Source of the DNA: Candidatus Desantisbacteria bacterium CG1_02_38_46 | GTDB taxonomy: Bacteria; Desantisbacteria; UBA1551; UBA1559 | Direction: 5' to 3' | NCBI GenBank assembly: GCA_001871015.1 | Contig: MNUO01000053.1 | Span: 1-11,508, forward strand | Length of the DNA: 11,508 nt | Shown: one piece after another, positions 476 through 11,508 of the stretch | Layout: every line of letters begins with the position of its first letter | How positions within the stretch are numbered: position 1 is the first letter of the stretch | Translations under genes and position numbers: made by a program | The notes under the pieces: generated by a model | Told to the model about the DNA's origin: nothing | Database searches by the model: none | What the model saw: only the letters and a program-made list of their open reading frames with translations

Positions 476-841
476 TTAAATTTTTAAACTTTCTTCAATT
501 GTTTCTCTCAATTCCTCAAATTGAAATGGTTTTTTAAAATAAGCAAATACTTTATATTCTTCTGCAATCCTGCGGGTTTCTTCAGAAGGAAAAGCAGTAA
601 TAATAATTACAGGAAGTTGAGGATTTTCTTCTCTTAAAATCTTAAGTATATCAATGCCATCCATCTCAGGTATGAAGATATCTAAAAGAACTAAATCTGG
701 TTTCTCGAGAGAAATTTTTTTCAGTGCTTCATGACCATCAGAGGCATTTATTACAGCATATCCTTCAGATTCAAGTCTTGATTGAAGCATCTTTAATATT
801 TCAGGATTGTCATCTACAATTAATATCTTTGCCAGGTTCAC
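476..841 (-). CDS. Single-domain response regulator (CheY-like receiver)
   Basis: A complete receiver of 121 residues and nothing else. Acidic pocket D10-D11, phospho-acceptor D54 (DLVLLDIFIPEMDG), switch Thr T82 (VIIITAF) and conserved K104 (KKPF) are all present, so it should accept phosphate. It starts at GTG 841, inside the last 32 bases of the kinase gene, so translation is probably coupled to the kinase. Without an output domain it probably acts by protein-protein contact or as a phosphorelay intermediate. The adjacent kinase at 810-2672 is its natural partner (inferred from position). The following receiver at 266-466 is a related, broken copy: both share the SRLE-x-x-GY-x-[VI]-I-x-AS-[DN]-G pattern. 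Confidence 0.93.
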   Translation of the reverse strand: MNLAKILIVDDNPEILKMLQSRLESEGYAVINASDGHEALKKISLEKPDLVLLDIFIPEMDGIDILKILREENPQLPVIIITAFPSEETRRIAEEYKVFAYFKKPFQFEELRETIEESLKI

Positions 842-2672
842 ACCTCTGGATTAATTCTTTTACAGTAATTCCATCAGAAGGATATGTAGCAATTTTCAGT
901 TCAAAAGATATTTTAGTTTCTAATGCAATTTTTATCCTTTTTCCTATAGATAAAGCTCCATTTTTATCAGTGAATGCTAAAATTGCAATGGCGCCTTTAT
1001 ATTTAAACATAGAATCTGCTGGCTTGCGCAAAATTTCTTCAATAGTCTTCTCTAACTGGATTAAAATCTGGGAAGGGAAATTATTTTTTATCTGGACCAT
1101 AATCAGGGAGAGGTCAGTTTTTTCATCTTTTGCATACTCAATTCCATCAGAAAGACATTCAAGAAAATAGCCTTCCTCATTATAAATCGGAATTGTAAAT
1201 GTAAGCTTACTTCCACAGGATAAAGGACTATGCAGGCTTTCTGCCCAGATTTTACCCTTGTGTATATCTATAATCTCTTTTGCAATTGGAAGGCCTAATC
1301 CCAATCCACTTTCCTTTGGTAAATGACTATAAGAAAAACGCTGGAATCGATCAAAAATTCCTGAGATATACTCTTGAGGAATTCCTGCACCTGTATCTAA
1401 AACACTTACCTCTATCTCATCCTTTTTTGCATGAGCAAAAATTTTCACCCAACCTTCTTTTGTAAACTTGAGGCTATTATCAATAAGATTTGTGAGTACC
1501 TGAGTGATTTTCTCAGGGTCAATATATACTGAAGGTAAATCTAAAGGTATCTCATCTCTAATTTCAAGACTTTTTTCTCGGGCTCGCTCGTGAAAGGAAA
1601 AAACAACATCTTTTATTAATGGTGGAATATCTGTCAACCTTCTCCTCACCTTTACCTTCCCTGACTCAATCCTGGAAAGGTCAAGAAGATTCTCAATTAA
1701 ATAGGACAGGCGATCTATATTCTTTGATACAATTGAAAGAAAATCACTCTGCTCAGGATTAATCTCCCCTTTTATTCCCTCTAGGACCTGGGAAATTCCT
1801 TCCTTTGCTATGCTTAAAGGAGTTCGCAATTCATGGGAAACATTTGAGATAAAAACAGATTTTACTTTGCTCAATCTATCTAATTCTCTATTTGCATTTT
1901 CTAAATCTGCAAGCAGTTTCTTCAGTTCACGCATATCCCTTGCAACACCAATTATACCTGTAGGATTATTTCCTTCGTCAAGAAGTAAAGAACCAGAGAA
2001 AGACATTGGAATCTTTGTTCCATCTTTTGCAATATAAAACATATCCTGGTTACGGACTGTTCCATTTTCTAAGATGGGCTTAACATTTTTGAAAAAACTA
2101 AATTTTTCTTCAGAAATAATAGATTCTATTGACTTACCAAGTAATTCTTTTTTCTCATAGCCAAGCAAATTTAGAAGAGCATTGTTGACTGTTTTTATCA
2201 TGGTTTCTGAATCTATTACAAACAGTGTATCAGCCATATTATTGATGATGCGGTCAGTATATCCCTTTTGTCTAGCTAATTCCTTAGAGGCATATTCAAG
2301 TTGTGTTGTGACAGTCTGAAGTGCAAGAGATTCATTTTCTATCCTTTGCACAATTGAATTCAAGGACACTGCAAGAGTTTCAACTTCATCTCCTGATTCT
2401 CTCAACTCTATTGACTCAACTTTTTCACCACTTGCTAACTTTTGTGTTTGTAGAGATATAATCTCAATATTTTTCCCGATTTTCATTAAGAGCAATACCC
2501 CAAAAATAGAAAGAATTAAAACCAGAAGAAAAATTAGAAAAAGATTTTCTACAGTGGTGATATTGTAAGGAAAGATATATTTTGCTATGATATATCCGGA
2601 TACAAGCAAAGGAATGATGGTGAGTAAGGCATAAATAATCACAACTTTACGGGATATTTTTTCTTGCTTCAT
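810..2672 (-). CDS. Membrane PAS sensor histidine kinase with degenerate GGDEF-like tail
   Basis: 620 residues. Two transmembrane helices (about 10-31 and 43-64) enclose only about a dozen residues outside the membrane, so a conventional extracellular sensor domain is absent. A HAMP-like linker (65-120), a PAS domain (135-250, ending GVARDMR), and the HisKA dimerisation domain with phospho-acceptor H280 (NVSHELRTPLS) follow. The ATPase domain has N399 (NLIDNS), D427TGAG and GLGLG at 456-460, so all kinase motifs are intact. Residues 500-610 resemble a GGDEF fold (IATYPSDGITVKELI matches the usual end of that domain), but the signature is replaced by FKYKGAIAI, so cyclase activity is unlikely. 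It overlaps the PAS gene by ATGA and the receiver by 32 bases. It probably phosphorylates the receiver at 476-841. Confidence 0.93.
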   Translation of the reverse strand: MKQEKISRKVVIIYALLTIIPLLVSGYIIAKYIFPYNITTVENLFLIFLLVLILSIFGVLLLMKIGKNIEIISLQTQKLASGEKVESIELRESGDEVETLAVSLNSIVQRIENESLALQTVTTQLEYASKELARQKGYTDRIINNMADTLFVIDSETMIKTVNNALLNLLGYEKKELLGKSIESIISEEKFSFFKNVKPILENGTVRNQDMFYIAKDGTKIPMSFSGSLLLDEGNNPTGIIGVARDMRELKKLLADLENANRELDRLSKVKSVFISNVSHELRTPLSIAKEGISQVLEGIKGEINPEQSDFLSIVSKNIDRLSYLIENLLDLSRIESGKVKVRRRLTDIPPLIKDVVFSFHERAREKSLEIRDEIPLDLPSVYIDPEKITQVLTNLIDNSLKFTKEGWVKIFAHAKKDEIEVSVLDTGAGIPQEYISGIFDRFQRFSYSHLPKESGLGLGLPIAKEIIDIHKGKIWAESLHSPLSCGSKLTFTIPIYNEEGYFLECLSDGIEYAKDEKTDLSLIMVQIKNNFPSQILIQLEKTIEEILRKPADSMFKYKGAIAILAFTDKNGALSIGKRIKIALETKISFELKIATYPSDGITVKELIQRCEPGKDINCR

Positions 2673-4099
2673 ATTCGATTCTCCAGTTCTTGTTCTAATT
2701 TTTTGATTTTCTCTTTCAATTCCACCATTTTTAGCTCTCGTCCAACTGCTAATCTGGAAAATTTTCCCAGTTCCTCTACTTTTTCTTCCAATTCCTTAGT
2801 TCTCCCGTTCACCCTTTGCTCTAAGGTTTTCGCCCATTCCTTAAGCTGTGCCTCAGATTTTTTCAGCTCATCAATGAGATGTGTTGTTAGTCGCATGTCT
2901 CTAGCTATACCGACAATACCTACTAACTTTCCTTCTTTATCCTTCATCACTGAGCCAGAGAAACTTACTGGAATATTTTCACCTGTTTTTGTCCGACAGG
3001 TAATATCATAATTCCGGATAGAACCTTCCTCAATTAACTTCTTTAATCTCGTGCCTTTAAATATGGAGATTTCTTCTGTAAAGATAGTCGCAACTGGCTT
3101 GCCAATCAGTTCGTTCTCTTTGTATCCTAATAGTTCTACTGTCGCGGGATTAATCGTTCTTATCTTTGCATCAGGGTCTACTACGATTAAAGTATCAATC
3201 ATTGATTTAATGATATTGTCGGTGTAATCCCTAGCCGCCACCACTTCATCCTCTGCGCGCTTGAGTTTGGTGATGTCTCGAAGGGTCGCAATAATATTTC
3301 TGGAATTGCCATCAGCATCTTTGATTAGTGAGTAGGCGATGCTCATCGCGAGTTTCTTACCATCTTTTGTGCGCAGTACTGTTTCGACCGGTTCTACATT
3401 GCCCGTTTCTATTAACTCTCCCAGGGGTTTCATAAATTTTTCAATATCTTCAAGTTCATCAAAACTTTTCCCAATTCTTTCTTCGGGTTTCCAGCCGAAC
3501 GTTTTTGTGAATGCTGGGTTAACATTGACTATCACTCCATTGAGGTTTAACACAATGAGTGAGTCAGGCATTCCATCAATAATGGCTTTAGTTTCTGCTG
3601 CTGCTGCAAGTTCCTTCTCCTTTTCCTGCAAACGCTTGAGCTCGGTGATGTCTTCATGTATATTCACTATAATTTCTAAATTACCTTTATCATCAAAAAC
3701 AGGAAAATGGGTAGCACCAAGACAAATAGGATTATCCGGAGCTTCTGGACTAACATCGTGTGGATTATACCATATTGCAGGAATCTTTATAGACTCTCCT
3801 TTTTTAAGTTTTTCTAATAGCTCGGGGAATTTTTTCTTAAGTAATGGATCGTTAAAAAAAGACCATTCTGGAGGTGGAGTTGCCCCAAAAAGCTTTTGGA
3901 ACGCTTTGTTTGCTCTAATATGATGTCCTTCTGCATCACATATTTGGACACTATAGGGATTTAATTCAATTATATTATCCAGGACTTTTCTATCTTCCTC
4001 AAGTTCTTTGCTATACTTCTCCAATTCCTCAGCTCTAGCATTCTCTGCTGGCTTGAATTCACTTTTTTCTTTTATTTCCTCATTCTTCTTCTTAACCAT
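2669..4099 (-). CDS. Triple-PAS sensor protein without a kinase domain
   Basis: 476 residues, soluble, highly charged at the N-terminus. PAS1 spans about 35-155 (ends NIHEDITELKRL), PAS2 about 168-282 (ends ATLRDITKLKRAE), and PAS3 about 292-405 (VPVSFSGS-like core, ends VGIARDMR). A long coiled coil (405-476) ends the protein and carries an AVGREL-x-M-x-ELK segment often found at the end of PAS proteins. There is no HisKA, ATPase or output domain, so it must signal through a partner. The kinase gene overlaps it by ATGA and its PAS domain resembles PAS3, so it is the obvious partner. ATG 4099 is chosen because GAGGG lies 5 bases upstream. An in-frame ATG at 4114 has no good ribosome binding site. 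Confidence 0.88.
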   Translation of the reverse strand: MVKKKNEEIKEKSEFKPAENARAEELEKYSKELEEDRKVLDNIIELNPYSVQICDAEGHHIRANKAFQKLFGATPPPEWSFFNDPLLKKKFPELLEKLKKGESIKIPAIWYNPHDVSPEAPDNPICLGATHFPVFDDKGNLEIIVNIHEDITELKRLQEKEKELAAAAETKAIIDGMPDSLIVLNLNGVIVNVNPAFTKTFGWKPEERIGKSFDELEDIEKFMKPLGELIETGNVEPVETVLRTKDGKKLAMSIAYSLIKDADGNSRNIIATLRDITKLKRAEDEVVAARDYTDNIIKSMIDTLIVVDPDAKIRTINPATVELLGYKENELIGKPVATIFTEEISIFKGTRLKKLIEEGSIRNYDITCRTKTGENIPVSFSGSVMKDKEGKLVGIVGIARDMRLTTHLIDELKKSEAQLKEWAKTLEQRVNGRTKELEEKVEELGKFSRLAVGRELKMVELKEKIKKLEQELENRI

Positions 4100-4103
4100 T
4101 ATT

Positions 4104-4490
4104 TTATCCCTCATAGACTTGTTCTTTCGATGCTATTTGTTTGCCAAGTTTTGGAATGATGCCTAAGGGTGTGGCAATCTTATTGATTTCGACCCAGGTG
4201 CCCTTGGTTATTTTCATCTTGCCCGTAGCCATTAAGACCATACCGAAGGCTTTACCCGTCATAAGATTGAAGTAATCTTTTTTAGATATTTCAAATTGAA
4301 AATCTGGATTCTCCAATTTTTTCTCAGAGAAGCTCATTTCACCTTTATCGACCGAGAAGGTAAAGGCTTGATCTTCTCCATTTTTACAAAGCATGACAAT
4401 GGTAACTACTGTATTCTTTATCTTCTCCTTTAATTTCTCGTCCCGATTAGCAAGTTCCACCGCCTTTTTGGTTAATTCAATAATATTCAT
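4104..4490 (-). CDS. SCP2-type lipid/sterol-carrier domain protein
   Basis: A 128-residue single-domain protein. After an N-terminal helix come a beta-rich stretch, then NPDFQFEISKKDYFNLMTGK, AFGMVLMATGKMKITKG and a closing hydrophobic helix ending PLGIIPKLGK. This is the layout of the SCP2 fold, in which the 'G-K-[MI]-x-[IV]-x-G' strand lines a tunnel for fatty acyl or sterol-like ligands. Ligand and function are unknown. It is the first gene of the leftward signalling operon and its stop overlaps or abuts the PAS gene start, so a role in binding the lipid or hydrophobic signal sensed by that system is plausible but inferred. AAAGGAG about 13 bases upstream belongs to the repeat at 4499-4550. 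I see no convincing promoter for this operon. Confidence 0.82.
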   Translation of the reverse strand: MNIIELTKKAVELANRDEKLKEKIKNTVVTIVMLCKNGEDQAFTFSVDKGEMSFSEKKLENPDFQFEISKKDYFNLMTGKAFGMVLMATGKMKITKGTWVEINKIATPLGIIPKLGKQIASKEQVYEG

Positions 4491-4498
4491 AGCAAGAA

Positions 4499-4550
4499 TT
4501 TAGCTCCTTTTTAAGGTCGAACGCGGTTGCACTTGGGTGGTGAGCCGTAA
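4499..4550 (-). repeat. Orphan GIY-YIG gene 3' end, copy A
   Basis: On the minus strand this encodes YGSPPKCNRVRP followed by TAA, the same ending as the intact GIY-YIG protein (YGVPPRCNRVRP). It is a direct repeat of 5389-5440, with 47 of 52 bases identical. All five differences fall at third codon positions and are synonymous in this frame. Homology stops at the codon for Y, so there is no upstream gene. The repeat runs 15 bases past the stop and supplies the Shine-Dalgarno sequence of the SCP2 gene. Confidence 0.85.
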
Positions 4551-4560
4551 GGAAAAATAA

Positions 4561-4578
4561 AAAAATCCGAAAAATCCG
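4561..4578. repeat. 9-bp tandem repeat
   Basis: AAAAATCCG occurs twice in immediate succession, between the GIY-YIG tail copy A and the DUF5678 promoter. It may be a junction scar or an operator. Nothing else supports a function. Confidence 0.5.
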
Positions 4579-4587
4579 CAATTTTGT

Positions 4588-4616
4588 TTGACAAACCTTG
4601 TTATTTGTGGTATAAT
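4588..4616 (+). promoter_or_regulatory. Perfect-consensus sigma-70 promoter for DUF5678/retropepsin
   Basis: TTGACA at 4588-4593 and TATAAT at 4611-4616 with a 17-base spacer match the bacterial consensus exactly. Transcription would start near 4623, about 30 bases before ATG 4654 and 18 before the GGAGGTG ribosome binding site. Confidence 0.88.
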
Positions 4617-4653
4617 AAAACATGAGGAAATCATTGTTATGGAGGTGAACATT

Positions 4654-4887
4654 ATGACTAAACCAAGAAAGAAATCTAAGAGAATCAGCAATGCCGAATG
4701 GATACGACGCCACCTTGGAGAGTTAGTAGATAAACATGTAGGGAAATATGCCATCGTTGCCAACGGAGAGGTCTTTATTGGACAGGATCCCGTAGTCCTT
4801 GAAGAAGAAGCGATTAGGAAACATCCTGGAGCAAAACTTACTGGGCTTCCCATACCCAGACGGGAGGATTTCCAATGCGCCCTCTGA
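4654..4887 (+). CDS. DUF5678-like small protein
   Basis: 77 residues. After a basic N-terminus (MTKPRKKSKR), the core has a Trp (NAEWIRRHLGELVDKHVGKY), then AIVANGEVFIGQD and an alpha-helical end. This W-x(n)-L-x(2)-[KH]-x-GK-[WY]-x(2)-[IV]-x-[ND]-G pattern is the one I associate with DUF5678, a small domain of unknown function often found just before a retropepsin-like gene. That is the case here: the stop overlaps the protease start by 13 bases. ATG 4654 is chosen because GGAGGTG (4641-4647) lies 6 bases upstream. Longer in-frame starts would lie within the promoter. It may be a partner or substrate of the protease (inference). Confidence 0.8.
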   Translation: MTKPRKKSKRISNAEWIRRHLGELVDKHVGKYAIVANGEVFIGQDPVVLEEEAIRKHPGAKLTGLPIPRREDFQCAL

Positions 4888-5279
4888 CCTTTCCCTATAT
4901 TTCCTTGCACGGCAAGCATCCTCTTCCCATTATCCCTCTGGAACTCAAAGGACCACTGGGATGGAAAGAAACGATGGCCTATGTCGATTCGGGAGCGAGC
5001 TTCAGTATATTTTCTATAAATGAAGCACATCGGCTTGGTATCGACTATATAACCGGTAAGGAATTCATGATTACTGTTGGCGATGGAAGTTCCATTCCTG
5101 TATATCTTCATAGACTCTCTGCAAAAATTTCTCGTGTGTCGTTTAAAGCTACTATAGGATTCTCTCCCCGCTTGGGCGTAGGGTTTAACCTCCTGGGGCG
5201 CAAGGATGTATTTGAGCGGTTCGATGTAACCTTCAGTGATAGCCGCCGTATTGTAATCTTCTCGCCACTTGCTAAATAA
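4875..5279 (+). CDS. Retropepsin-like aspartyl protease domain protein
   Basis: 134 residues. The catalytic motif is AYVDSGASFSIF, with D38-S39-G40-A41 corresponding to the D-[ST]-G-[AS] of retropepsins. The second half has FNLLGRKDVFERF, matching the 'hydrophobic-hydrophobic-G-R-x-x-[FL]' segment that packs against the active site, and ends VTFSDSRRIVIF. One D-S-G per chain means activity would need a dimer, as in retroviral proteases. No signal peptide or membrane segment is seen, so a cytoplasmic location is expected. Start ATG 4875 has GGGAGG (4862-4867) 7 bases upstream and lies inside the DUF5678 gene, so the two are co-translated. Bacterial members are mostly uncharacterised and the substrate is unknown. 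Confidence 0.82.
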   Translation: MRPLTFPYISLHGKHPLPIIPLELKGPLGWKETMAYVDSGASFSIFSINEAHRLGIDYITGKEFMITVGDGSSIPVYLHRLSAKISRVSFKATIGFSPRLGVGFNLLGRKDVFERFDVTFSDSRRIVIFSPLAK

Positions 5280-5388
5280 CCCATCTTTTACTTCTTCGCT
5301 CTGTATCATTCCTCTTTTTCTCTTTAACTCCTTTTATTTTCTCTGTGGCTTCGTATTTTTTGGGCTGGCCTAATTTTCAGAAAGAGAG
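5280..5388. other. Spacer after the retropepsin gene
   Basis: No credible gene is seen. On the minus strand it carries a purine-rich stretch (AAAATAAAAGGAG, AGAGAAAAAGAGG) resembling low-complexity intergenic repeats. No clear terminator for the retropepsin gene is visible. Confidence 0.4.
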
Positions 5389-5466
5389 TTTAGCTCCTTT
5401 TTAAGGTCGAACGCGATTACATTTGGGCGGTGAACCGTAAGTGTCCATAAATAATTGGTACAATTT
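5389..5466 (-). pseudogene. Orphan GIY-YIG gene 3' end, copy B (longest remnant)
   Basis: On the minus strand it encodes KLYQLFMDTY then GSPPKCNRVRP and TAA, aligning without gaps to the last 21 residues of the intact GIY-YIG protein (17 of the last 20 identical). DNA identity with that gene includes an 18-base perfect run at the 5' end (AAATAATTGGTACAATTT on the + strand). Homology begins abruptly at 5466, immediately beyond the HEPN terminator-like hairpin. There is no start codon or upstream domain, so this is a remnant and not a gene. Confidence 0.85.
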
Positions 5467-5486
5467 AAAAAAGCAATCCTTTTGCT
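5467..5486 (-). terminator. Possible weak terminator after HEPN
   Basis: On the minus strand AGCAA and TTGCT form a 5-bp stem with a 5-base loop, followed by a run of T. It lies 7 bases after the HEPN stop. The stem has only two G-C pairs, so it would be weak. Confidence 0.35.
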
Positions 5487-5492
5487 ATTTTG

Positions 5493-5933
5493 TTAAAACT
5501 TTTTGTTTTTTAAAAGATTTTCTACTAATTTAATGGCTTCTTCTGCGGCTTGAATACTTTTTTGCGCACCTTGTTTTGAAAATTTACTTTTATAATCTGC
5601 CATTTCCCGAAGATCTAGAGCCTGGATAAAATTATCATAATATCCTTGTGGAAGTAATCCTTTATCAACATAAAAAGCCTTAATGGCAAAGACAAGTTGA
5701 ATATGGCTTTTCTCTCGGTACTTTTTCTTATAAAGAAGTGCTCTTGAAGCGTGAAATATAGCATAGTAGGCCTGGCTGGTTGCCCATTTAAATCTTTTTC
5801 TTGCTAATGTTTCTTTAGCGTCACGTAAATCTTCTTTGGCTGTCATCAACTCTTTAAAGCTAATCTTAGGACCATCAGAAAAAGGAATAATTCTTCTCTT
5901 CTCAATTGCTTCCTGGATATTATATTTCTCCAT
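5493..5933 (-). CDS. HEPN domain protein, putative toxin of a MNT-HEPN pair
   Basis: 146 residues, all alpha-helical by composition. The core WATSQAYYAIFHASRALLY and the C-terminal ALDLREMADYKSKF are the usual marks of the HEPN family, whose active members cut RNA as dimers. The usual R-x(4-6)-H catalytic spacing is not obvious: the nearest candidates are R73-EKS-H77 and R109-EMADY. Nuclease activity is therefore uncertain and it could be an inactive or scaffold member. The start overlaps the end of the nucleotidyltransferase gene by 14 bases, with GAGGGGAAAG upstream. In such pairs the nucleotidyltransferase neutralises the HEPN protein, in some cases by AMP addition to it. Confidence 0.85.
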   Translation of the reverse strand: MEKYNIQEAIEKRRIIPFSDGPKISFKELMTAKEDLRDAKETLARKRFKWATSQAYYAIFHASRALLYKKKYREKSHIQLVFAIKAFYVDKGLLPQGYYDNFIQALDLREMADYKSKFSKQGAQKSIQAAEEAIKLVENLLKNKKF

Positions 5934-6486
5934 AACTCGGCTTTCCCCTCCAGAGAGTTATTCCCTTTTTTACCTGTCTATGAAATACACTGTCTTCTTT
6001 TTTTGATGAAGCAAATTCTAAAGGATCCTGGATAATAACCTGATATCTCACATCAATGGTTTCATACTTGCCGATAATCCTTCTTAATTCTTTTTTATAT
6101 TCTGTACGAATAAATAAATCTATGTCACTTTTCTCATCATTAGAGCCATCTGCGCGACTCCCAAAAAGTATAACTTCATAACAATATTTCTGAATTTCTT
6201 TGACCAATTTTTGAAGACCAAGCAAGTTCTCAAATATTTTGAATTGTTTTAAGATAAAGTTATCGGTGTTAAGTTTATATAGGAATAGATTTCCTTTTCT
6301 TTCTCTGGATAAGATATCCAATTTTAAAAGTAACCTTAATATTTGGTTAGTTGCGCCCTTGCTGCACTTAGTCATTTTGGATACCTCATTGGCACAAAAT
6401 ACTATTCCCGGATGGTTTGAGAAAAAGGAAAGTATCTTCAAGGGTGCTTGGTGATATAGGTATTTTTTAATTTTTTGGTCGTTCAT
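5920..6486 (-). CDS. MNT nucleotidyltransferase with N-terminal winged helix, putative antitoxin
   Basis: 188 residues. The first 70 or so form a winged-helix DNA-binding domain (VFCANEVSKMTKCSKGATNQILRLL is the recognition region; LYKL the wing). The nucleotidyltransferase fold follows, with GSRADG at 109-114 and metal-binding D121-I-D123 (EKSDIDLFI), i.e. the G-S-x(10)-D-x-D motif. Fusion of a DNA-binding domain with MNT suggests autoregulation of the pair. ATG 6486 is chosen because AAAGGGG is 7-8 bases upstream; the ATG at 6507 lies in the -10 box of the promoter and cannot be transcribed. The HEPN gene overlaps its end by 14 bases. It lies directly after the GIY-YIG gene and between two copies of the GIY-YIG tail. 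Confidence 0.88.
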   Translation of the reverse strand: MNDQKIKKYLYHQAPLKILSFFSNHPGIVFCANEVSKMTKCSKGATNQILRLLLKLDILSRERKGNLFLYKLNTDNFILKQFKIFENLLGLQKLVKEIQKYCYEVILFGSRADGSNDEKSDIDLFIRTEYKKELRRIIGKYETIDVRYQVIIQDPLEFASSKKEDSVFHRQVKKGITLWRGKPSYGEI

Positions 6487-6505
6487 TATATTATCCCCTT
6501 TGTTC

Positions 6506-6534
6506 ATTATAGTGAAAAATTAAGTTAATGTCAA
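6506..6534 (-). promoter_or_regulatory. Perfect-consensus promoter of the MNT-HEPN operon
   Basis: On the minus strand TTGACA (6534-6529) and TATAAT (6511-6506) with a 17-base spacer. The -35 box contains the TGA stop of the GIY-YIG gene (6533-6531). Transcription would start near 6499, a few bases before the AAAGGGG ribosome binding site. Confidence 0.87.
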
Positions 6535-6596
6535 GGTCTTACCCGGTTGCATCTGGGTGGAACGCCGTATGTATCCACAAATAATTGGTACAATTT
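6531..6596 (-). repeat. GIY-YIG gene 3' end, copy C (inside the intact gene)
   Basis: The last 22 codons of the intact gene, the counterpart of the orphan tails at 4499-4550 and 5389-5466. It resembles copy B over its length. Similarity ends within or just after the stop codon, where the MNT-HEPN promoter begins. Confidence 0.8.
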
Positions 6597-7376
6597 CCTT
6601 TCTTCCTCCCGCCATCTCTGGGGAACAAGAATATATCGAAAAAGACAACCATATTTTTCTAAGAAAGTCTTTATATGACTATTTTTACTGTTTTGTCCGA
6701 GATGCTCTTTTAATCTCTTTTTAAGATTCCTGGCGCTGCCGAGATAAATCACCGAAGTTTTGCATTGGGGATATTCCAGTTCTTCTCCTTTCAGGCGAAA
6801 CTCATAGATGCCTGGACTTGCCGGCGCATTTCTAAGAACCTCCTCCAGGATAAAGGGATAAAGCATGGAAAAATTTGCTGATAAAGGGGGGTATTTATAC
6901 CCGGAGAGCCTCCTCTGTGAAGAAGGAATTCCCATATCCTTGCGATAAATACCAATTGAGTGCCTGGAAAGTTTAATCCCGTATTCACTCTCTAATTTAG
7001 CCTTTATAAGGAAATTTACAATGGGGACAGTCCCATGAATTGCACCACTACAGGCAGAGTAAACTCTGCCACTACAAAGATAATATGCATTGAAACCTGC
7101 ACAGGTGTATCTAATGGAGAAACCTTCGCTATTGCGTTCTATTTTAGCGATTACCCGAGAAGGCTCCATGATTAGCGAAGAGTCTATTTGGCAATCTGCC
7201 TCTCTCTGAGATAGAAATCTTTTGGTGATGACCCCCTTTCTTAATAATTTTTCAAAGAGCGGTGACGCTTCTACATTTTCAATGAATCCCTTGTATTTTA
7301 CCAGAGGCAACTGGAGAAAATCAGCAAAGATGATGCGGCCAATAAGTTTTGCATGCTCTATATCCCACGATTTCAA
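6531..7376 (-). CDS. GIY-YIG nuclease-domain protein with sigma-54-like N-terminal half
   Basis: 281 residues from TTG 7376. The C-terminal domain (about 185-281) is GIY-YIG: PGIYEF, VIYLGSARNLKKRLKEH (R221 as candidate catalytic Arg), an EEER cluster (257-260) for the metal-binding Glu, and the closing P-x-x-N (N277). The N-terminal half looks like parts of sigma-54: FADFLQLPLVKYKGFIENVE then SPLFEKL recalls its activator-interacting region, and SRHSIGIYRKDMGIPSSQRR (137-156) matches the RpoN-box helix. Residues of about 100-119 come from palindromic repeats (7021-7075). The role is unknown; a DNA-binding nuclease is the simplest reading. The start has a weak ribosome binding site, and a frameshifted upstream extension is possible. 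Confidence 0.78.
   Translation of the reverse strand: MKSWDIEHAKLIGRIIFADFLQLPLVKYKGFIENVEASPLFEKLLRKGVITKRFLSQREADCQIDSSLIMEPSRVIAKIERNSEGFSIRYTCAGFNAYYLCSGRVYSACSGAIHGTVPIVNFLIKAKLESEYGIKLSRHSIGIYRKDMGIPSSQRRLSGYKYPPLSANFSMLYPFILEEVLRNAPASPGIYEFRLKGEELEYPQCKTSVIYLGSARNLKKRLKEHLGQNSKNSHIKTFLEKYGCLFRYILVPQRWREEERKLYQLFVDTYGVPPRCNRVRP
7021..7036. repeat. Palindrome within the GIY-YIG gene
   Basis: GGGACaGTCCC (7024-7034) is flanked by ATGGG/CCCAT. It encodes GTVP in the linker just before the RpoN-box-like helix, and lies 16 bases from a second palindrome. This 'GGGGACAGTCCC' wording is typical of dispersed palindromic repeats in uncultured bacteria (recollection, not a search). Confidence 0.55.
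7053..7075 (-). repeat. Palindromic repeat inside the GIY-YIG gene (copy 1)
   Basis: GGCAGAGT, AA, ACTCTGCC form a perfect 8-bp stem with a 2-base loop (7053-7070), flanked by near-repeated ACTACA on both sides. Read on the minus strand it begins GTAGTGGCAG and resembles the repeat at 11485-11506 (18 of 22 bases). It stays in frame and encodes part of LCSGRVYSACSG. Confidence 0.75.
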
Positions 7377-7529: not shown

Positions 7530-9071
7530 ATGAAGAAGGTTATACATATTGGTGTTATTACATTCTGGGTGATAATGATGTCTCTTTTGATATTGAGAAA
7601 CTTACCGCGCAAAGGAAAGGATGAAATCCGTTTGACAAAAATTTCCATGGATGAGGAAAAAATGGAAAGGGATAACTGGATGGGAATTTACCTGAAGGAT
7701 AAGAAGATAGGATATTCTCATTTTGTCGTCACAAAAGAAAAAATGAAAAATGAGGATGTCTATCAGGTAGTTGACGAAACTTTCATGAAATTGAAATTTG
7801 GCGAACAGACCTATGATGCATTTATCACTGGAAAAGCCCTTCTAAAAAAAGACCTGACACCTATATCTTTCTCTATGGATATATTTACAAATGTATATAA
7901 GGTAGCTATTTCAGGTGAAATTAAAGGCAATAAAATTAATGTTGAAATTCTTTCAGGTGGTTCAACCTTTAAAAAAACTTTCCCGTTCACTAAATCTACT
8001 CATTTGCCAATGTTACTCAATATAATATTGCCAAAACAGAAACTTGAAATTGGCAAACCCTACAGACTGACACTTTTTGATCCTGAAATATTGGCAGGAG
8101 ACCAGTATATAATAATAATCCTGAAAAAAAAGGAGAAAATTGGAAATGAAGATGTGATGCTCATAGAAAAAGAGTATAAAGGTATGAAGACAACATCCTG
8201 GATAAATATGAAAGGTGAAACAATAAAAGAAGAAGATGAGTTTGGAATGAAGATTCTTAGAGAGCCAAAGGAAATTGCCCTCGCAAAAGGTAAGATTGAA
8301 CCCTGTGAAATTGTTAAAATGTCCTCCATCCCGTCAAATATGTTTATACCCGCTGCGCGAAAACTTTCATATTTGAAGGTGAGAATGAGGGGCTTGAGAG
8401 ATTTTCTTATTCCTGATACCCTGAGGCAAAAAGCAAAAAAAGAAAACGGAGAAGTCATAGTGGAGATAGCGAGTGCACAGAGGCAAGAAGTGGCAAAGTG
8501 GCAAAGTATCCCGCCTGCACCAGAGCTTCGGCGGGCAGGCGCCGAGTCAGAAAGCGAAAAATACAGGCAGTATCTGTTGCCCGGCCCATTTATTCAATCC
8601 AACGATGAGAAAATTGTTAATATGGCAGTAGAAATTACACAGGATGAAACCCAGCCCTGGAAAAAGGCAAAAAAATTAAATCAGTGGGTCTTTAATAATA
8701 TTGAAAAAATACCAACTTTTTCAATTCCCTCTGCTTTAAGTGTTCTGAAAGAAAAAAAGGGAGATTGCAATGAACATGCGGTACTCCTTGTTGCGCTGGC
8801 CCGTGCATGTAAAATTCCATCGAGAATAACTGTGGGATTGGCATATCTTCCTCCTTCAGGCATTACTCTTCCGGATGACAAAGGTAGTTTCTTCTACCAT
8901 GCGTGGGCAGAGGTCTACATATCAGAAGAATGGAGAGAACTTGACCCAACATTCGGTCAGGATATAGTGGATGCAACTCACATTAAACTCCTGGATGGGG
9001 ATATGGATAAACAAGTAGAAATTTTAAGGGTAATAGGCAAACTAAAAATAAAAGTTGAGGATTTTAAGTGA
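7530..9071 (+). CDS. Membrane-anchored transglutaminase-like protein
   Basis: 513 residues. A single N-terminal hydrophobic helix (about 5-23) without a clear cleavage site suggests an anchor with the rest outside the cytoplasm. A beta-rich region (about 45-300) precedes a transglutaminase-like core: catalytic C413 in KGDCNEHAVLL, H457 in FFYHAWAEVY and D472 in ELDPTFGQ, the full Cys-His-Asp triad. In bacteria this fold usually acts as a peptidase or cross-linker, and its substrate here is unknown. Residues about 327-337 are encoded by a GC-rich palindrome preceded by an 8-bp tandem repeat, just before the catalytic domain. The stop overlaps the ABC ATPase start (GTGA), so this protein probably works with the transporter, for example on an exported peptide (inference). 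Confidence 0.88.
   Translation: MKKVIHIGVITFWVIMMSLLILRNLPRKGKDEIRLTKISMDEEKMERDNWMGIYLKDKKIGYSHFVVTKEKMKNEDVYQVVDETFMKLKFGEQTYDAFITGKALLKKDLTPISFSMDIFTNVYKVAISGEIKGNKINVEILSGGSTFKKTFPFTKSTHLPMLLNIILPKQKLEIGKPYRLTLFDPEILAGDQYIIIILKKKEKIGNEDVMLIEKEYKGMKTTSWINMKGETIKEEDEFGMKILREPKEIALAKGKIEPCEIVKMSSIPSNMFIPAARKLSYLKVRMRGLRDFLIPDTLRQKAKKENGEVIVEIASAQRQEVAKWQSIPPAPELRRAGAESESEKYRQYLLPGPFIQSNDEKIVNMAVEITQDETQPWKKAKKLNQWVFNNIEKIPTFSIPSALSVLKEKKGDCNEHAVLLVALARACKIPSRITVGLAYLPPSGITLPDDKGSFFYHAWAEVYISEEWRELDPTFGQDIVDATHIKLLDGDMDKQVEILRVIGKLKIKVEDFK
8491..8506. repeat. 8-bp tandem repeat in the transglutaminase gene
   Basis: TGGCAAAG occurs twice in a row, four bases before the palindrome at 8510. The reading frame stays open across it. 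It may be a slip that accompanied insertion of the palindrome. Confidence 0.5.
8510..8540. repeat. GC-rich palindromic repeat inside the transglutaminase gene
   Basis: CCCGCC (8510-8515) pairs with GGCGGG (8530-8535), or GCCTGC (8513-8518) with GCAGGC (8535-8540), so two hairpins compete. It is GC-rich inside an AT-rich gene, and encodes PPAPELRRAGA between the N-terminal region and the catalytic domain. It looks like a dispersed palindromic repeat inserted in frame. Confidence 0.7.
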
Positions 9072-9851: not shown

Positions 9852-11485
9852 AGATGAAACAGACATTAATTCTGATTGGTATTTTTTTAAAAGAGGCAAA
9901 AAACGTTTTAACGCGGGCCACCCGAGAAAATCAATTAAAAGTCTATCTATTTTCTATTCTCGGTGGTGGCTTTATGGTAGGAATATACTTCCTGTTTCAC
10001 AGAATATTGTTTAAACTAAATTCCTTTGAGATTGTTGGTCCAATCCTCATGGAAAAATTGCTATTTCTGATATTCCTTACATTTTTTATAATGCTTATTT
10101 TTTCCAACATAATCACCAGCCTCTCTACATTTTATCTCTCCAACGACCTCGTATTGCTATTCTCAAATCCAGTTCAATTGAGTTCTATTTTTTCTTCCAA
10201 GTTCATTGCCACGGTATTTCAAAGTTCATGGACTATAGTATTTTTTGGATTGCCAATATTTCTTGCATACGGTATAGTTATGAAAAGTCCCTGGTATTTC
10301 TACCCCTCAATTCCTTTCCTGCTTATTCCTTTCCTTGTCATTCCTGCGGGTATTGGTATTATGATTATTATGGTATTAGTCCGGATTTATCCAGTAAAAA
10401 GAATAAAAGAAATAACTTTTTTCCTCACCATTGCATTCGCTGCAGTTCTGGTCATATATTTTCGCTCTTTACAACCTGAAAGACTTGTAAATCCCGAAGG
10501 ATTTTCTCTGTTAGGCGACTATCTAACATTCCTCAGGGGACCATCCTCACCCTATTTACCCAGTTACTGGGTCTGTGTTGTTTTTCTAAATACCATTAAA
10601 CAAAATCCCTCAGAGATATTTTTCTATTTCCTCGTCCTTTTGAGTAATGCTGCTATGTTATACATTTTTGCCAGTTGGGTTGGAGAAAAAATTTATTATA
10701 TAAGCTGGGCTAAATCTCAGAGCAAAGTAAGCGGAAAGCCTGTCAAGTTTTCACGCCTAGAGAGAATAATTGGAACACACCCGCTTCGCGGGTACCCGTT
10801 ATTCAAAGCATTCCTGCTCAGGGATATCAAACTCTTCTGGCGTGATGTAACCCAGTGGTCCCAGGTCATCCTCTTTTTTGCCATAGGTGTAATTTATATA
10901 TTTAACCTTAAATCTTTCAGGATTCAGACAGCATCAACTTTTTTGATTTCGTTTATCAATTTAGGATTCACAGGTTTTGTGATTGCCGCCACAGGAATTC
11001 GTTTTTCCTTTCCTGCAATCTCTCTGGAAGGAAAGGCATTCTGGCTGGTAAAATCTTCACCCTGTCCGATGAAGTCGTTTTTGAATGAAAAATTCTGGAC
11101 TAGTTTCATCCCTTTATTAGGGTTAGGTGAAATACTGATTATTATTTCCAATATCCTGCTCAAGGTTACGCCTGTAATGTTCATTACAGGAATTGTAGCT
11201 ACATTCCTTATGGCTTTAAGTCTGACAAGTCTTGCAGTAGGAATGGGTGCGATTTACCCTTACTTTAAAGCGGACAATCCTGCAGAATTAGGCATGACAT
11301 ATGGAGGAATACTCTATATGATTTTTGGGTTGGCTTATGTGGGAGCAATGATTCTTTTGTTTGAATTAAGCTTTGGTAGCGGGATTTATATTTCCATAAT
11401 AGGAGTATTCTTGCTAAACTTCTTCGCTACTTACCTCCCACTGAAAAACGGATTAAAATCCCTCCAGCAATATGAATGGAAATAG
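9839..11485 (+). CDS. ABC-2-type transporter permease
   Basis: 548 residues, very hydrophobic, with about a dozen membrane segments in two halves (roughly 35-220 and 330-545) joined by a hydrophilic stretch (about 285-335) that contains RLERIIGTHPLRGYP. The single long chain suggests a fused, pseudo-dimeric exporter. Substrate unknown. It follows the ATPase at a short distance and is surely its partner. Candidate starts are TTG 9836, ATG 9839 and ATG 9854, none with a local Shine-Dalgarno sequence; ATG 9839 is chosen because hairpin folding would place AAAGGAGG at proper distance. The gene ends at TAG 11485, next to a palindromic repeat. Confidence 0.87.
   Translation: MTSLKMKQTLILIGIFLKEAKNVLTRATRENQLKVYLFSILGGGFMVGIYFLFHRILFKLNSFEIVGPILMEKLLFLIFLTFFIMLIFSNIITSLSTFYLSNDLVLLFSNPVQLSSIFSSKFIATVFQSSWTIVFFGLPIFLAYGIVMKSPWYFYPSIPFLLIPFLVIPAGIGIMIIMVLVRIYPVKRIKEITFFLTIAFAAVLVIYFRSLQPERLVNPEGFSLLGDYLTFLRGPSSPYLPSYWVCVVFLNTIKQNPSEIFFYFLVLLSNAAMLYIFASWVGEKIYYISWAKSQSKVSGKPVKFSRLERIIGTHPLRGYPLFKAFLLRDIKLFWRDVTQWSQVILFFAIGVIYIFNLKSFRIQTASTFLISFINLGFTGFVIAATGIRFSFPAISLEGKAFWLVKSSPCPMKSFLNEKFWTSFIPLLGLGEILIIISNILLKVTPVMFITGIVATFLMALSLTSLAVGMGAIYPYFKADNPAELGMTYGGILYMIFGLAYVGAMILLFELSFGSGIYISIIGVFLLNFFATYLPLKNGLKSLQQYEWK
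10779..10798. repeat. Palindrome inside the permease gene
   Basis: ACCCGC, TTC, GCGGGT form a perfect 6-bp hairpin (10779-10793), overlapping CGGGTACCCG (10789-10798), a perfect palindrome. It encodes HPLRGYP in the cytoplasmic stretch between the two halves. It is GC-rich against an AT-rich gene. Confidence 0.5.
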
Positions 11486-11506
11486 TAGTGGCAGGGATTG
11501 CCCTGC
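11485..11506 (+). repeat. Palindromic repeat after the permease (copy 2)
   Basis: GCAGGG, ATTG, CCCTGC (11491-11506) form a 6-bp stem. With the leading GTAGTG, it matches the minus strand of 7053-7075. The repeat sits against the permease stop and may act as a transcript-end hairpin; the window ends 2 bases later. Confidence 0.65.
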
Positions 11507-11508
11507 TT

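Follow-up and report, generated by a model that had tools for sequence, protein, structure and literature searches.

How the 3' end of one gene came to stand three times on one strand of a contig is the question raised by the window, a stretch of 11,508 bases of a Candidatus Desantisbacteria genome that was analysed as a whole. The gene encodes a GIY-YIG nuclease, and only one of its three ends still has a body. A sequence-only reading took the ends for the borders of two accessory modules and likened these to elements that insert at the 3' end of a gene, each bringing a substitute tail, in the manner of islands at tRNA genes. The explanation preferred here, which is given an even chance, is that they are the 3' ends of three diverged copies of the nuclease gene and relics of repeated arrivals and losses. 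The three ends are as follows.

6531–6596, minus strand: tail A, the last codons of copy A with the stop included (repeat scan, degenerate pattern, BLASTN)
5401–5466, minus strand: tail B, an orphan of 21 codons and a stop (repeat scan, BLASTN)
4511–4549, minus strand: tail C, an orphan of 12 codons and a stop (repeat scan, degenerate pattern, BLASTN)

An 84-base family with members at 4481, 5371 and 6501 is at the top of the repeat scan. Searched with a degenerate pattern of the tail that tolerates as many as three mismatches, the 1.73-Mb genome has exactly three sites. All of them are on one strand of this contig, and the reversed control pattern has none. A BLASTN search of the genome with copy B finds copy C (E 2e-16) and copy A (E 1e-8), and nothing above noise beyond these two. 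Chance similarity is ruled out by these three lines of evidence together. The search of the same genome for further tails, which the sequence-only reading had asked for, therefore confirms the three same-strand copies and places all of them at this locus. Tail A has the conserved motif Gly-x-Pro-Pro-x-Cys-Asn-Arg, the tail is covered by the conserved columns G271, P274 and N277 (alignment A4), and the tails carry the Asn motif of the GIY-YIG core.

Read along the minus strand, the nuclease gene with tail A is followed by the MNT and HEPN genes and tail B, then by the protease pair, which is encoded on the other strand, and after it by tail C, the SCP2 gene, the PAS protein, the PAS histidine kinase and response regulators. 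Both modules are thus bordered by tails as had been described, MNT-HEPN between A and B and the retropepsin pair between B and C.

6506–6534, minus strand: sigma-70-type promoter, a perfect TTGACA-17-TATAAT, overlapping the copy A stop codon and upstream of MNT-HEPN
5920–6507, minus strand: MNT nucleotidyltransferase gene, its product extended by an extra N-terminal part (Pfam Polbeta and NTP_transf_2; PADLOC PDC-M05A, E 4e-18)
5493–5933, minus strand: HEPN gene (Pfam HEPN, E 1e-14; PADLOC PDC-M05B, E 0.002)
4875–5279, plus strand: retropepsin-like aspartyl protease gene (Pfam Asp_protease_2, above cut-off)
4654–4887, plus strand: small gene, possibly DUF5678 (Pfam E 0.08, below cut-off)
4588–4616, plus strand: sigma-70-type promoter for the protease pair, a perfect TTGACA-17-TATAAT, 38 bases from tail C
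4104–4490, minus strand: SCP2-domain gene following tail C (Pfam SCP2)
2669–4114, minus strand: PAS sensor protein gene overlapping the SCP2 gene (Pfam PAS families)
810–2672, minus strand: PAS histidine kinase gene (Pfam HATPase_c, HisKA and PAS)

Pfam bears out the earlier MNT-HEPN and retropepsin labels, while the DUF5678 label is weak at its sub-cut-off score. The nucleotidyltransferase and HEPN genes have the same adjacent order as the MNT-HEPN pairs known as type VII toxin-antitoxin systems and as the candidate defence pair PDC-M05, both parts of which match. The nucleotidyltransferase differs from that of type VII MntA-HepT in its extra N-terminal part and in its MntA equivalog score of 27 bits, where the cut-off is 60. 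The 26 bases between the HEPN end and tail B contain a weak hairpin and a T run, as read from the sequence, although the scan that found the promoters has no such entry. Perfect consensus promoters number 9 in a 333-kb sample of the genome, about one per 37 kb. A derivation of the protease-pair promoter from the nuclease promoter was considered and rejected, the 6 differences in 30 being within the range of the genome's own consensus promoters.

Insertion of the modules as integrative elements would account for their position exactly between tails, and for the promoter inside the copy A stop codon with which the MNT-HEPN module opens. The 18 bases at the start of tail B, identical to copy A, also lie where the core of an attachment site would be expected. 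However, the start of C has no comparable core, the longest exact A-C match being 8 bases, and the modules are opposite in orientation and differ in kind and in G+C (0.32 and 0.43). Nothing suggests that they arrived as one element, because their orientation and G+C differ. No integrase or recombinase is present among the window genes, on which point the sequence-only reading was correct.

The way in which the tails have diverged also counts against insertion. A copied attachment site would at first be identical, and its later drift would be blind to codons. Direct repeats alike at both ends, as in an island, are not seen here, since the tail copies differ by 13–31% over their 39 shared bases. 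The longest exact matches are 18 bases for A-B and 27 for B-C. Tail A differs from B and C in two amino acids, and in 9 of 39 bases from C and 12 of 39 from B. Tails B and C both encode YGSPPKCNRVRP; over 13 codons they have five differences, all in third positions and all synonymous, with no amino-acid change. In simulation, five random neutral changes would spare the peptide with P 0.0007–0.003, according to transition bias. Because the differences are synonymous only, an argument that rests on five of them, B and C most likely diverged as parts of working genes, and such coding constraint is not expected of integrative elements.

The match between B and C continues past the stop codon.

5371–5402, minus strand: post-stop segment of B, with AAAAGGAGCTAAA identical to C, followed by a faint trace of the SCP2 start (12 of 18 bases matching)
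4500–4512, minus strand: AAAAGGAGCTAAA after tail C, identical to the B copy and likely the ribosome-binding site of the SCP2 gene

The 13 bases directly after the stop are identical in both, and AAAAGGAGCTAAA is likely to be a ribosome-binding site because of its place before SCP2 and its sequence. The 12 of 18 matching bases that follow, up to the SCP2 start codon, have a chance probability of about 0.002. Downstream of B the SCP2 homology fades within about 33 bases, beyond which it is not significant against dinucleotide shuffles. Judging from this shared sequence, tail B should therefore be seen as what remains of a junction similar to the one at C, rather than as a gene end only. The orphans were correctly described as ending in stop codons, but for B and C the term tail covers only part of what is repeated. 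An inserted element would not be expected to include sequence belonging to the SCP2 junction. Integration with a copied tail is accordingly considered unlikely, given the divergence of the tails, the synonymous-only changes, the ribosome-binding site carried by B and the lack of an integrase. Recombination between related family members, which had been offered as another agent, fits better.

If the nuclease-SCP2 junction had simply been duplicated in tandem in this lineage, with later deletions and the capture of two unrelated cassettes, the nuclease itself would have played no part. Strand and order are the same in each copy, tail and SCP2 start region are both repeated in B, and deletions could have occurred by way of the many dispersed repeats in the genome. 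Two deletions would be needed, each of them sparing 12–21 codons, and the early fading of SCP2 homology after B is also unfavourable, so that this course of events is held to be improbable, if slightly less so than insertion. It is far less probable still that contigs with related tails were wrongly joined. The genome is a fragmented draft of 133 contigs, the window end is a contig end, and the 27 exact bases common to B and C could mislead a short-k assembler; two independent false joins at one gene end would nevertheless be required, the exact A-B match is only 18 bases, and the spacing of the MNT-HEPN promoter over the copy A stop codon is intact.

The gene that ends in tail A contains the sole nuclease body remaining in the genome.

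6531–7376, minus strand: GIY-YIG gene, copy A, 281 amino acids, internally shortened, with an RpoN-box/sigma-54-like remnant and a GIY-YIG nuclease domain
7044–7085, strand not assigned: dispersed genomic repeat, replacing about 169 middle-region residues inside copy A

Pfam GIY_YIG_2 and GIY-YIG both match above cut-off, and the core residues Y191, Y211, R221, E259 and N277 are invariant (alignment A4), which places copy A in the GIY-YIG superfamily. The gene had been described as intact, but only residues 3–90 and 124–281 align with the Aquificota homologue (L025), of which about 169 residues are missing. The reading frame stays open across the inserted repeat. Sigma54_DBD scores below cut-off (E 0.011) because the middle of the protein is deleted.

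The CACTACAGGCAGAGTAAACTCTGCCACTAC-centred repeat is found in the window at 7044–7085 and about 11485–11508, and has 73 matches in the genome, some of them in tandem arrays. A separate palindromic repeat-like insert, CCGCCTGC...GCGGGCAGG, lies in frame within a transglutaminase-like gene at 8500–8560.

Copy A belongs to a sparse, mobile-looking family in which a sigma-54 DNA-binding domain precedes the GIY-YIG domain (Pfam and alignments). Sigma54_DBD is above cut-off in five relatives (E 1.2e-13 to 4e-7), and in the Aquificota homologue of 411 amino acids it scores E 1.5e-10. Besides the window, matches were found in 6 of 386 diverse genomes, the weakest of them (G151) without the sigma-54 part. 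Within one further phylum 6 of 245 genomes matched, one of these being already counted among the 386. Two genomes of the window's own phylum were covered, and the second of them lacks the gene. An empty site, sought via the SCP2 gene in the 386 genomes, gave one weak homologue only. A scan of genome contigs with poor patterns returned the Aquificota locus only. A phage origin was rejected, since none of 50,697 phage records matched and viral contigs gave short GIY-YIG matches only.

Free-standing homing genes are judged by their location in or next to a recurring target gene, and this family shows such a location: 12 of the 13 homologous loci outside the window are within or directly before a PAS sensor gene. 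At nine loci the nuclease gene sits between upstream and downstream pieces of what appears to be a single PAS gene, and in several of these start and stop codons overlap. In Aquificota and in two betaproteobacterial plasmids it immediately precedes the PAS gene. The Aquificota homologue, the closest at 44% identity, abuts its PAS gene stop-to-start. When the pieces of one split locus were rejoined they gave a full-length, sub-threshold PAS match (E 0.004), which neither piece gives alone; the rejoined pieces of a second locus gave no PAS match. It is therefore likely, though short of proof, that the nuclease splits one PAS gene at these loci. Several of the homologous genes outside the window are frameshifted, as is expected of genes that arrive and then decay.

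The PAS genes at family loci contain pure runs of 6 to 13 GAA codons at two fixed places in the PAS domain, in G+C-rich hosts too. The family loci within or before PAS genes with such (GAA)6–13 runs are listed by locus.

L025: 9416–11833
L026: 4413–6477
L027: 4299–6470
L066: 4314–5278
L067: 9268–10232
L068: 7587–9192
L069: 6624–8586
L125: 6070–9987
L126: 5001–6249
L127: 3841–5120
L128: 98–1374

Eight of the split loci have a tract that follows the nuclease gene, and in these it starts about 66–84 bases past the stop codon of that gene. When 241 genomes were searched with a pattern for one of the two positions, 3 matched, all of them family carriers at those very loci; since the pattern was built from the same loci, only its absence from the other 238 genomes is informative. 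As an independent check, of five loci added afterwards through the protein model only, four have a pure tract of at least six codons. No such tract occurs in the PAS genes of the window, nor at the Arcobacter locus. The literature searched does not mention this association of the family with PAS sensor genes and GAA tracts, which merits separate study. The same literature gave nothing relevant on a fusion of sigma-54 and GIY-YIG parts or on GIY-YIG with PAS genes, and the terms sigma-54 and PAS are absent from a 2006 GIY-YIG survey.

In light of the family, we infer an order of events for three nuclease genes at this locus. Tail C would mark where one copy formerly adjoined the SCP2-PAS-kinase operon. 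As the closest homologue abuts a PAS gene, it is plausible that the old state was a nuclease gene that ended at C, immediately upstream of SCP2-PAS. Tail B would be the end of a second copy, trailed by the same ribosome-binding site, and A that of the only copy still having a body. The copies may have reached one spot by recombination via the shared downstream flank, with DNA from diverged relatives or from duplication. Their 5' parts would have been lost by aborted copying or by deletion, and the 3' ends beside the ribosome-binding site kept. Aborted homing-type copying via flank homology could leave a 3' end and flank alone, and later deletion would give the same picture where the ribosome-binding site must stay. 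Since tail C adjoins the SCP2 ribosome-binding site, it is to be expected that the body there was lost and the tail retained. Two promoter-bearing cassettes would afterwards have settled in the gaps. Counting against this explanation, no nuclease body is detectable upstream of B or C, where similarity is not significant against dinucleotide shuffles, and the other homologous loci examined have no orphan tail. The keeping of three ends with the loss of two bodies is a coincidence unless aborted copying was involved.

The free-standing homing endonuclease genes of T4-type phages include seg and mob, and mobE in nrdA of phage Aeh1 (PMC2988022). The family resembles them in that the nuclease gene is in or beside a host gene, with start and stop codons overlapping those of its neighbours; the host gene is split in some cases, decay is frequent, and flanks are co-converted in the T4-type genes. 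Unlike these, the family is found in bacterial chromosomes and plasmids, has a sigma-54-type DNA-binding part where T4-type genes have NUMOD parts, and has PAS sensor genes with (GAA)n tracts beside it as hosts; its putative homing role is read here from gene context. With genomic islands that insert at the 3' end of a gene and repair its frame, the window shares the placing of cargo between copies of a gene end; it differs from them in lacking an integrase, in the divergence of the copies and its coding type, and in the duplication of the downstream ribosome-binding site.

A broader proposal, regarded as doubtful, is that the family may be an undescribed class of homing-type elements in PAS genes which leave or expand GAA tracts, and that serial aborted arrivals left the 3' ends in the window and opened the spot for defence and protease cassettes. 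If true, this would make the family a further class of selfish nuclease gene, one with bacterial sensor kinases as its targets and with a tie to triplet-repeat tracts inside sensor domains. Sensor-gene splitting and change of a glutamate tract would then offer a way, open to testing, for selfish DNA to remodel signalling, and gene-end relics from repeated arrival and decay could pass for integration sites. By itself the tail pattern is of local interest; the association with sensor genes and (GAA)n is the more surprising result.

Other repeats were seen at these and further loci. An AAGC tetranucleotide repeat directly after the nuclease gene (L026, about 5546–5570; L027, about 5542–5562) differs in copy number between the plasmids. 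From its position it could alter the frame in which an EAL gene is read from an upstream ATG, and it is possibly a phase-variation switch. Genome G068 has another pure GAA tract (L073, 1241–2020), whose opposite strand encodes a run of leucines within a membrane segment; no PAS gene is near.
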